Positions 322 through 56,542 of a DNA stretch of 64,000 nt are shown here, one piece after another (the first letter of the stretch is position 1; every line of letters starts with the position of its first letter). Under the pieces are notes generated by a model. The model searched no databases. It was not told the origin of the DNA and saw only the letters and a list, made by a program, of their open reading frames with translations. This DNA is from Aureibaculum sp. 2308TA14-22 (GTDB taxonomy: Bacteria > Bacteroidota > Bacteroidia > Flavobacteriales > Flavobacteriaceae): positions 1,824,501 to 1,888,500 of the forward strand of contig NZ_JBEWXT010000001.1 of NCBI RefSeq assembly GCF_040538665.1, in the 5' to 3' direction. The position numbers and the translations under genes are program-made.

Positions 322-353
322 AAAAAAAGCTTCTCTTATCGAGAAGCTTTTTT
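322..353. terminator. Bidirectional hairpin terminator
   Basis: The hairpin AAGCTTCTC-TTATC-GAGAAGCTT is flanked by A-runs and T-runs, so it can work on both strands. On the minus strand it directly follows a tRNA-His 3'-end remnant at 356-373. This suggests it once terminated a second tRNA-His copy. Confidence 0.7.
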
Positions 354-355
354 CT

Positions 356-373
356 GGGTGGAAGATGGGGCTC
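356..373 (-). pseudogene. tRNA-His 3'-end fragment
   Basis: These 18 bases are identical to 504-521, the 3' acceptor and T-arm end of the nearby tRNA-His gene. Homology stops abruptly at CCCCGATAG, one arm of the palindromic repeat seen at 604-621. A terminator follows, as for the intact copy. It is therefore a remnant of a second tRNA-His copy and cannot fold on its own. Confidence 0.6.
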
Positions 374-470
374 CCCGATAGTTATTCTCTGCGTCATTTC
401 ATTTACTTAAAAATATACATCGGGACAGGCTTCTCGCCCCTTACATTTTCCATTTTTCAAACTTCTGAAA

Positions 471-503
471 AAAAAAAGAGCTGATTCTTTCAAATCAACT
501 CTT
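471..503 (-). terminator. Terminator downstream of tRNA-His
   Basis: On the minus strand, straight after the tRNA 3' end, AAGAGTTGAT and ATCAGCTCTT form an imperfect hairpin around TTGAAAGA, followed by a run of T. This is the expected intrinsic terminator of the tRNA transcript. Confidence 0.75.
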
Positions 504-579
504 GGGTGGAAGATGGGGCTCGAACCCACGACCCTCGGTACCACAAACCGATGCTCTAACCAACTGAGCTACAACCACC
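504..579 (-). tRNA. tRNA-His (anticodon GTG)
   Basis: The minus strand folds as a cloverleaf. The D-arm is GCTC-AGTTGGTTAGA-GC, the anticodon stem-loop is TCGGT-TTGTGGT-ACCGA with anticodon GTG, and the T-arm is GTGGG-TTCGAGC-CCCAT. An extra 5' G (the G-1 of histidine tRNAs) faces the discriminator C. The acceptor stem has two U-U oppositions (positions 5:68 and 6:67). The 3'-end remnant at 356-373 carries the same bases, so they are probably native and not damage. CCA is not encoded. Confidence 0.88.
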
Positions 580-593
580 ATTTACAATTTTGG

Positions 594-636
594 TGCTCTA
601 ACCTCCCGATAGCTATCGGGATGAGCTACAATCACC
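594..636 (-). pseudogene. tRNA-His 5' fragment with a palindrome in the D-loop
   Basis: Bases 594-603 and 622-636 match the 5' half of the tRNA-His gene (acceptor strand, D-arm). Between them, three D-loop bases are replaced by the perfect palindrome TCCCGATAGCTATCGGGA (604-621). Nothing resembling the anticodon, T-arm or 3' end is attached. The fragment lies 14 bp upstream of the intact tRNA gene in the same orientation. Confidence 0.65.
604..621. repeat. 18-bp palindrome, family member 1
   Basis: TCCCGATAGCTATCGGGA is a perfect 18-bp inverted repeat. Degenerate relatives are at 14402-14419 and 15012-15029, and separated arms are at 374-381 and 418-425. It behaves like a short REP/MITE-like repeat confined to intergenic DNA. 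Confidence 0.7.
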
Positions 637-779
637 ATTTTAATTATATCGCCAACCTTGCAGGCTTAGCGGATGCAAATATAATCTATTTGCAGTAGTG
701 TTCAAATAAAAATTAAAAAATTTGTAACTTTTTGGACAATTTAATCTACTAATTATATATCATAATAAAATTCATCAAA

Positions 780-14401: not shown

Positions 14402-14419
14402 TCCCAATAGCTATCGGGA
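14402..14419. repeat. 18-bp palindrome, family member 2
   Basis: TCCCAATAGCTATCGGGA differs at one position from the perfect palindrome at 604-621. It lies in the 158-bp gap between the MATE and SRPBCC genes, where nothing else is recognisable. Confidence 0.65.
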
Positions 14420-15011: not shown

Positions 15012-15086
15012 TCCCGATAGTAATCGAGATTCACTCTGAATGACAAACAAATTCCCTTCCCTTTGGGAAGGGCTAGGGATGGGCTT
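15012..15086. repeat. Palindrome family member 3 plus GC-rich hairpin
   Basis: TCCCGATAGTAATCGAGA (15012-15029) is a degenerate copy of the 18-bp palindrome. It is followed by TCACTCTGAATGACA and a hairpin CCCTTCCC-TTT-GGGAAGGG. A similar CTCAGAATGACA tail occurs at 56652-56662. The whole looks like a composite intergenic repeat. On the minus strand the hairpin follows the glutathione peroxidase stop and might also stop transcription, though the T-run is weak. Confidence 0.55.
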
Positions 15087-55858: not shown

Positions 55859-56542
55859 CTAATTACTCATTTTCCACCTCTCAATAATTTCCTCCACATG
55901 ATTAATTGTCTTTTTTGTCCAATCCAATCTTTTTTCATCTTTTTCTTCTTCCGATAATTGCCAATCTATTTCAGACACTCTTAATCGTTGTGTTATTGAT
56001 TGTAGTATAATGGCAGCAGCCACCGAAATATTAAGGCTTTCCGTAAAACCGTACATTGGAATTTTTAAATAGCCATCAGCTTCATCTAAAATATAATCTG
56101 AAACTCCCTCTTTTTCTACCCCAAAAACAAAAGCAGATTTTTTAGAAATATCAAAATCGGGCAATAGGCAGTCCCGATAGCCATCCAGATCGCTATGCGG
56201 TGTTGTTGCAATAATCTGATAACCATTTTTTCGCAGTGTTTTTATACAGTTTTCCGTATTGTTTTCCTGTTGATTATACTCATGAAAATCTATCCATTTT
56301 TGAGCTCCTTTTGCCACTTGGTTAGATACATAACTGTTGTATTTATTTTCAATAATATGGATATCTTGAATACCAAAAATATCACAACTACGCACAACGG
56401 CACTTGTATTATGCTTTTGGTAAATATCTTCTAAAACCACTGTAAAATGACGGGTTCTATCTTTTAAAATTTTCTCAAAGAGGGTTTTTCGGTTATCCGT
56501 AATCAAGTCTTGTAAATAAGCTAACAATTGTTTATCAACCAT
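55859..56542 (-). CDS. TrmH-family tRNA/rRNA 2'-O-methyltransferase (SpoU)
   Basis: This 227-residue SPOUT methyltransferase has the knot motifs VFGVEKEGVSDYIL, then IPMYGFTESLNISVAAAIILQSI. The N-terminal part (RTRHFTVVLEDIYQKHNTSAVVRSCDIFG) is as in TrmH, which methylates G18 of tRNA. The start at 56542 (MVDKQLLAYL) is preferred over a frame beginning 69 bp upstream in AT-rich DNA. It is divergent from the sirtuin gene. Confidence 0.9.
   Translation of the reverse strand: MVDKQLLAYLQDLITDNRKTLFEKILKDRTRHFTVVLEDIYQKHNTSAVVRSCDIFGIQDIHIIENKYNSYVSNQVAKGAQKWIDFHEYNQQENNTENCIKTLRKNGYQIIATTPHSDLDGYRDCLLPDFDISKKSAFVFGVEKEGVSDYILDEADGYLKIPMYGFTESLNISVAAAIILQSITQRLRVSEIDWQLSEEEKDEKRLDWTKKTINHVEEIIERWKMSN

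Follow-up and report, generated by a model that had tools for sequence, protein, structure and literature searches.

A tRNA-His gene within the split remains of its older copy, and its probable kinship with GIY-YIG nuclease cassettes at tRNA genes of Bacteroidota

How does a bacterium come to carry its tRNA-His gene between two pieces of that same gene, one of them interrupted in the D-loop by a perfect palindrome? An initial annotation had pointed out this arrangement near the start of a 64,000-nucleotide stretch of Aureibaculum sp. 2308TA14-22 (contig NZ_JBEWXT010000001.1, positions 1,824,501 to 1,888,500; the whole stretch is called the window here) and had suggested that the palindrome is involved in breaking or duplicating tRNA genes. 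ARAGORN found a single tRNA gene in the window, tRNA-His(gtg) on the minus strand, with its end at 578 instead of the annotated 579, and of the 36 tRNA genes found genome-wide this complete copy is the sole tRNA-His. Both fragments were recovered as well. The 3' piece, described as identical to the gene over 18 bp, aligns with tRNA nt 58-75 at a score of 18.0 (maximum of 50 shuffles, 10.0), and the 5' piece scores 12.6 (shuffle maximum 9.0), although it ends at 635 and not at 636. The parts of the locus are as follows.

322-353, minus strand: terminator-like hairpin of the old tRNA-His gene, by sequence; aligns with the tRNA-His terminator of the empty locus
356-373, minus strand: 3' piece of the old tRNA-His, nt 58-75; 18/18 identical to 504-521 and collinear with the empty locus
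373-425, minus strand: long hairpin closed by CCCGAT/ATCGGGG, immediately before the 3' piece; sequence and predicted fold
467-503, minus strand: terminator-like hairpin of the complete tRNA-His, by sequence; resembles, by eye, the tRNA-His terminator of locus L011
504-578, minus strand: complete tRNA-His(gtg), by ARAGORN
579-593, minus strand: 15-bp spacer from the 5' piece to the complete tRNA, without an ORF
594-603, minus strand: tRNA-His nt 18-27, the rest of the D arm beyond the palindrome; sequence and alignment
604-621, strandless: palindrome TCCCGATAGCTATCGGGA in place of tRNA nt 15-17 (GTT); an equal form lies beside tRNA-Asn in the same genome
622-635, minus strand: 5' piece of the old tRNA-His, nt 1-14, with one mismatch; collinear with the empty locus to nt 14
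675-707, minus strand: putative tRNA promoter (TTTG ... TATATTTG) upstream of the 5' piece, by sequence; kept in the empty locus

The minus-strand order is promoter, nt 1-14, palindrome, nt 18-27, spacer, complete tRNA-His, terminator, hairpin, 3' piece and terminator, with separate terminator-like hairpins for the full tRNA and for the 3' piece. The palindrome does take the place of three D-loop bases, as had been noted, and the remark that both fragments break at palindrome arms also holds: the 3' piece borders a half palindrome, CCCCGATAG (373-381), which closes the longer predicted hairpin at 373-425. By eye, a resembling arrangement occurs at locus L019. The putative promoter, judged from a consensus motif, is upstream of the 5' piece, and the 5' piece would therefore be in the pre-tRNA leader.

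The annotation had set store by a comparison with close relatives for an empty tRNA copy, and such a copy exists. In three genomes of the same genus (G001, G002 and G003), the orthologous locus consists of nothing but a single tRNA-His gene, to which the window aligns collinearly up to nt 14 of the gene (window 622) and again from nt 58 (window 373), the old terminator included. Since collinearity with the empty locus holds on both sides, a resident gene was split and now encloses a complete gene that has a different terminator. The tRNA-His of the window thus lies between the remnants of its own older copy. By eye, G012 (L019) and G011 (L023) have hairpin-bearing tRNA-His pieces of their own, and G005 (L011) keeps a degenerate 3' piece of tRNA-His.

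Whether the palindrome could be the cause was judged from where else it occurs. Allowing up to three mismatches, the window holds four matches, one of them exact, against none in 100 shuffles. The near-palindromes at 14402-14419, 15012-15029 and 56172-56189 (1-3 mismatches) lie far from tRNA-His, the only tRNA gene of the window. The form AGCTCA-palindrome-GG occurs at 11 places in 9 of 249 family genomes, beside tRNA-Asn, Met, Trp and His, one of these places (L112) having no tRNA in the stretch examined; a variant with two changed bases adjoins tRNA-Val in the genome of the window. The exact D-loop-palindrome form, sought across the order, matched only this genome among 395 and is hence local. 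Within this genome there are 9 exact palindromes, 7 of which have neither a tRNA gene nor, by eye, a tRNA piece. The looser pattern TCCCGAN2-10TCGGGA is found at 27 places (reversed control, 0), so the motif is not confined to the nuclease cassettes described below. At about 1501-1518 of three further loci of this genome (L003, L008 and L009), the palindrome seems by eye to replace the loops of the common intergenic palindromes CACCCTG..CAGGGT and CCGCC..CGGC, and it may insert into hairpin loops in general. The proposed tie between palindrome and tRNA breakage is thus sound insofar as the palindrome marks broken copies; it is probably not the agent, because most exact copies in this genome lack a tRNA piece and broken copies of this kind, with the palindrome or with other hairpins, belong to GIY-YIG nuclease units across the phylum. 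A nuclease cassette is the likelier agent, and the hairpin would be its mark at the scar.

Such a cassette is present in the same genome. At tRNA-Asn, a window-type 5' piece with the D-loop palindrome (G000:C1:432512-432546) is followed by a 96-aa GIY-YIG ORF (G000:C1:432193-432480), which lies between this piece and the full tRNA and ends next to the latter. Genus-wide, such ORFs directly adjoin tRNA genes for Asn, Asp, Leu, Phe, Met, Pro, Ala and Arg. The protein of the tRNA-Asn unit has matches in 31 of 249 family genomes, many with tandem copies; at 23 of the 30 family loci examined (L121-L150), the neighbour of an ORF is a tRNA gene for Asn, Met, Arg, Phe, Pro or Val. Searching named genomes with 17 proteins of this kind as queries gave at least 486 relatives, and the best 79 loci, all from Bacteroidota, were analysed. 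A same-strand tRNA lies within 200 bp of the ORF at 57 of these best 79 loci, and an opposite-strand tRNA was not found near the ORF among the matches listed; several of the other 22 loci have a contig end or a broken ORF. We also sampled the phylum evenly, using genomes at least 90% complete, and obtained matches in 82 of 296. We took 30 of these 82 genomes, one locus per genome and best scores first, and found a same-strand tRNA at 24 loci and an opposite-strand tRNA at 0. No relatives were found in viral contigs, phages or plasmids, and one family protein gave no match in 50,697 phage records (tblastn, E 1e-3). A phage or plasmid vehicle was accordingly set aside, and the lack of such a vehicle between cells counts against the homing reading proposed below. 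The idea that other small GIY-YIG ORFs are tied to structured RNA was also dropped, with one Rfam match (trp leader) in 20 loci.

All three cassette-family proteins tested match PF01541 at 44-49 bits (cutoff 22.6), and no NCBIfam model scored above its cutoff for the cassette protein. Profile searches matched UPF0213, SLX1 and, weakly, the I-TevI catalytic domain. The structure model is confident (pLDDT 95.4), and its nearest structures are SLX1-type, UPF0213 and again the I-TevI catalytic domain, all with E >0.005. Matches to homing endonucleases in PHROGs are weak, as are the best PADLOC matches (about 20 bits). Y, Y-x-G, R, H, E and K are invariant or nearly so in the cassette-family proteins, two of which were trimmed to a later Met for this comparison, and we presume catalytic roles for the conserved Tyr, Tyr, Arg and Glu.

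The full cassette consists of the gene for this nuclease of about 95 aa, tRNA sequence that completes the tRNA gene at one junction, and a hairpin-interrupted fragment at the other. It comes in two orders. The U-type has a promoter, a 5' fragment with hairpin, the ORF and the full tRNA, and the D-type has the full tRNA, a terminator, the ORF, a 3' fragment with hairpin and a terminator. We counted 83 distinct units, 28 U-type and 55 D-type; L148 rows called tRNA-Stop, L208 and repeated proteins were left out of the tree, hairpin, dN/dS, covariation and leader counts. The fragment matches the adjacent tRNA beyond shuffles (a score at least 2 above the largest of 20) in 77 of the 83 units and not in 6. 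With only the two best hairpins per flank classed, the fragment-bearing flank has a CCGA..TCGG hairpin in 67 units, another GC-rich hairpin in 10 and none in 6; the hairpin shown for L071 is that of the terminator. The CCGA..TCGG motif, a pattern that can also hit tRNA stems or terminators, occurs within 150 bp of the ORF at 72 of the 79 named loci versus 3 of 36 control GIY-YIG ORFs, which were chosen for the absence of a nearby tRNA. The strict core CCGATAGCTATCGG is found in the same range at 49 of the 79, and the motif density is 2.2 per kb within 150 bp of the ORF versus 0.24 per kb elsewhere.

The window locus shows the same combination, that is, an intact tRNA (504-578) with its own fragment (594-635) broken by a CCGA..TCGG hairpin (604-621). 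Between fragment and full tRNA-His there is no GIY-YIG ORF, neither in the 15 bp on the 5' side nor in the 130 bp on the 3' side, and the latter also leave no room for an integrase gene. A remnant GIY-YIG frame was considered in 374-503, a stretch too short to claim one. Among the loci examined, no tRNA-His unit with a GIY-YIG ORF was found. Because the window locus has no such ORF, its link to the cassettes rests on anatomy, and it is probably an ORF-less, decayed relative of them. A living parallel of this two-sided locus is the tRNA-Arg gene of L174, which has an ORF on either side, one U-type and the other D-type.

The position of the hairpin differs between the two types. It interrupts U-type Asn units at nt 14 or 15 and D-type units roughly at nt 22-69 (nt 44-64 in tRNA-Asn). 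As its place varies in D-type units, the hairpin need not mark one cut site, and a fixed cut site deduced from it was rejected. Among 40 distinct sequences, drawn from the 58 units that have CCGAN6TCGG, Watson-Crick pairing reaches 95% and 97% at the two pairs adjoining the core versus 50% and 68% when shuffled (0/500, with shuffles that ignore relatedness), whereas the innermost AGCT pairs show no covariation (75% vs 74% and 80% vs 76% shuffled). Covariation confined to the outer pairs favours a stem-loop and disfavours a purely double-stranded palindrome. GTTCTTT or GCTCTTT, which we take to be boxA, is found in 15 of 28 U-type leaders and 0 of 55 D-type leaders (background 1.5%), and such a boxA-like leader would assist transcription through the ORF into the tRNA. 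Hairpins also turn over, as the units of one array at L259 (1720-2620) carry GATAACTATC, GAAAGCTTTC or a fusion of the two.

Gain and loss of units can be followed at one orthologous site. At tRNA-Phe, G001 has 4 units, G002 has 2 and G003 has 0; the upstream flank and tRNA-Phe of G002 and G003 are 96% identical to G001, and the empty tRNA-Phe runs uninterrupted through the place of the hairpin. G005 and G012 show, by eye, an apparent decayed GIY-YIG start behind the tRNA-Phe terminator. Elsewhere, arrays of 4.1, 5.1 and 6.9 units consist of units 97-99% alike. The ORF is under purifying selection: over 56 pairs more than 60% identical, dN/dS has a maximum of 0.35 and a median of 0.16, the median being taken from pairs with dS >0.15. 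On a tree of 77 proteins (those longer than 112 aa cut to their last 100 residues), in which many forks are unresolved, the tRNA isotype changes 23 times versus 40.4 times when shuffled, with 0 of 200 shuffles as low, and the U/D type changes 8 times. This clustering indicates that lineages keep to one tRNA and switch at times.

ORF-less forms are also found beyond tRNA-His. In this genome, fragments of the same gene lie close to 7 of the 36 tRNA genes (Asn, Val, His, Leu, Ser, Ala and, weakly, Pro); a GIY-YIG ORF was found only at the Asn unit. Forms without an ORF and with the same D-loop hairpin occur beside Trp (in three genera), Met, Asn and His, with a changed copy beside Val, and L119 keeps both the hairpin and the GTTCTTTAA leader without an ORF. 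The palindrome fragments beside tRNA-Trp (L113, L114 and L118) end about 15 bp before the gene in all three genera, a near-constant spacing. In the genome of the window, 3' pieces of tRNA-Leu-taa, Ser-tga and Ala-ggc (L234, L241 and L253) lie 126-166 bp downstream, start in the T-loop region and each follow a different hairpin. In G172, an Asn-fragment array and a Phe-fragment array (L259 and L260) have their first GIY-YIG ORF interrupted at the same point by the same foreign sequence, transposase-like by eye, which seems to cut both arrays off from their tRNA.

We think it somewhat probable that the window locus belongs, as a degraded form without an ORF, to a family of homing cassettes, which would cut tRNA genes, rebuild them and leave a scar blocked by a hairpin. 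The comparisons establish the anatomy, the splitting of the old gene, the varying presence of units in relatives, their arrays, the association of nuclease gene and tRNA, and selection on the ORF; cutting, homing and the part played by the hairpin are inferred. The nuclease would cut an intact tRNA gene, and recombination with an occupied copy would insert the cassette, which would supply the lost tRNA half so that the cell keeps its tRNA. The hairpin would block re-cutting of the scar, which in U-type units lies before the ORF and might serve as a silent binding site, as the I-TevI operator is portrayed in the source on it (PMC2988022). Repeated rounds of insertion would give tandem arrays, and loss of the ORF would leave hairpin-marked fragments like those around tRNA-His. 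The full tRNA in the cassette retains the presumed target, so self-cutting must be avoided somehow. For the broader proposal, the scales are about level: Bacteroidota would have previously undescribed tRNA-gene homing cassettes of about 0.4 kb per unit, a conserved phylum-wide CCGAU stem-loop would tag the disabled tRNA copy and provide both immunity to cutting and autoregulation, and decayed cassettes would have left most of the tRNA fragments seen in these genomes.

Selfishness is not the only way to read a conserved nuclease beside a tRNA gene. The cassettes might be resident modules whose nuclease protects the tRNA gene from integrating elements or is aimed at the tRNA genes of incoming phages, with the hairpin-bearing fragment as regulator or decoy. 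Purifying selection on the ORF, clusters within genera and the lack of matches in phages, plasmids and viral contigs would all suit this reading, and the boxA-like U-type leaders could be an adaptation to read-through into the tRNA. We consider it unlikely, as the patchy presence (31 of 249 family genomes and 82 of 296 in the phylum sample) looks like selfish DNA, the 4, 2 and 0 units in relatives together with ORF-less remnants resemble selfish gain and decay, and the PADLOC matches are weak.

Two other explanations would detach the window from the nuclease. tRNA genes are landing sites of large integrase-carrying elements, and the att sites of integrases similarly start in the T-loop region. 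The window fragments might therefore be remnants of integrase-driven integration, or of plain tandem tRNA duplication, with the GIY-YIG family a separate matter; the missing ORF fits this, as do the T-loop-region starts of the 3' pieces at Leu, Ser, Ala and His. This account appears a little less likely still, because it leaves unexplained the 5' piece with the D-loop palindrome, whose form recurs in the ORF-bearing tRNA-Asn unit. By eye, a hairpin precedes each 3' piece as in ORF-bearing units, and both the ORF-less L119 and the apparent decayed ORF starts at tRNA-Phe speak against it. The idea that the palindrome itself breaks or duplicates tRNA genes, through hairpin-induced breakage or template switching, we regard as improbable. 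It would account for palindromes at the junctions, for their presence (by eye) in the loops of other intergenic palindromes and for differing hairpins among units of one array, but it explains neither the same-strand nuclease gene (57 of 79 and 24 of 30 loci) nor the selection on that gene, nor the exact palindromes of this genome that have no tRNA piece. Rickettsia palindromic elements are short palindromes within genes, longer than the palindrome here, and to our knowledge they have no link to a nuclease gene at tRNA genes.

For the homing cassettes that we favour, no description of chromosomal GIY-YIG/tRNA cassettes in bacteria was found in the open-licence PMC literature. The closest known system is SegB of phages T4 and T6, a free-standing GIY-YIG homing endonuclease that cuts inside tRNA genes (PMC13096335; PMC2988022). 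As outlined in the first of these sources, it amplifies tRNA and its own gene in tandem by recombination, often lies near tRNAs in phages and has the motif RAWTSGAAC (PMC13096335), which to our own reading would be the reverse complement of a T-loop-like sequence. SegB and the cassettes share a GIY-YIG enzyme adjoining tRNA genes. Going by these accounts, SegB is a phage gene, whereas the cassettes are chromosomal, encode about 95 aa, abut and rebuild one tRNA gene and leave a hairpin-interrupted fragment; by sequence they were not placed in the SegB family, and one cassette protein had no tblastn phage match at E 1e-3. I-TevI, whose GIY-YIG catalytic domain the cassette protein shares by weak profile and fold matches, is described as binding an operator that resembles its homing site and cutting it about 100 times less well (PMC2988022), which offers a model for the hairpin-blocked fragment. 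As portrayed there, I-TevI is intron-encoded with a long DNA-binding domain, whereas the cassettes have no intron and the small domain only. A 2012 archaeal paper put forward, according to its abstract, a recombinase-bearing mobile element as the cause of tRNA disruption (PMC3293823). At the Caldiarchaeum tRNA-Thr, as in the cassettes, a 5' tRNA fragment and a complete tRNA flank an enzyme-encoding sequence; that case is archaeal, 1.8 kb long, involves a recombinase rather than a GIY-YIG enzyme and intron gain, and its abstract mentions no hairpin (PMC3293823).

If the proposed homing cassettes are real, they would explain the hairpin-marked tRNA fragments and the nuclease-tRNA tandem arrays across the phylum, and they would raise the testable question of how the nuclease spares the adjoining intact tRNA gene. 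The CCGA..TCGG stem-loop, common to several orders at various tRNA positions, calls for an explanation of its own. The story of SegB and tRNA would be extended from phages to chromosomes, and a cassette of about 0.4 kb with one nuclease, invading and restoring tRNA genes, would rank with the smallest autonomous mobile units of bacteria.
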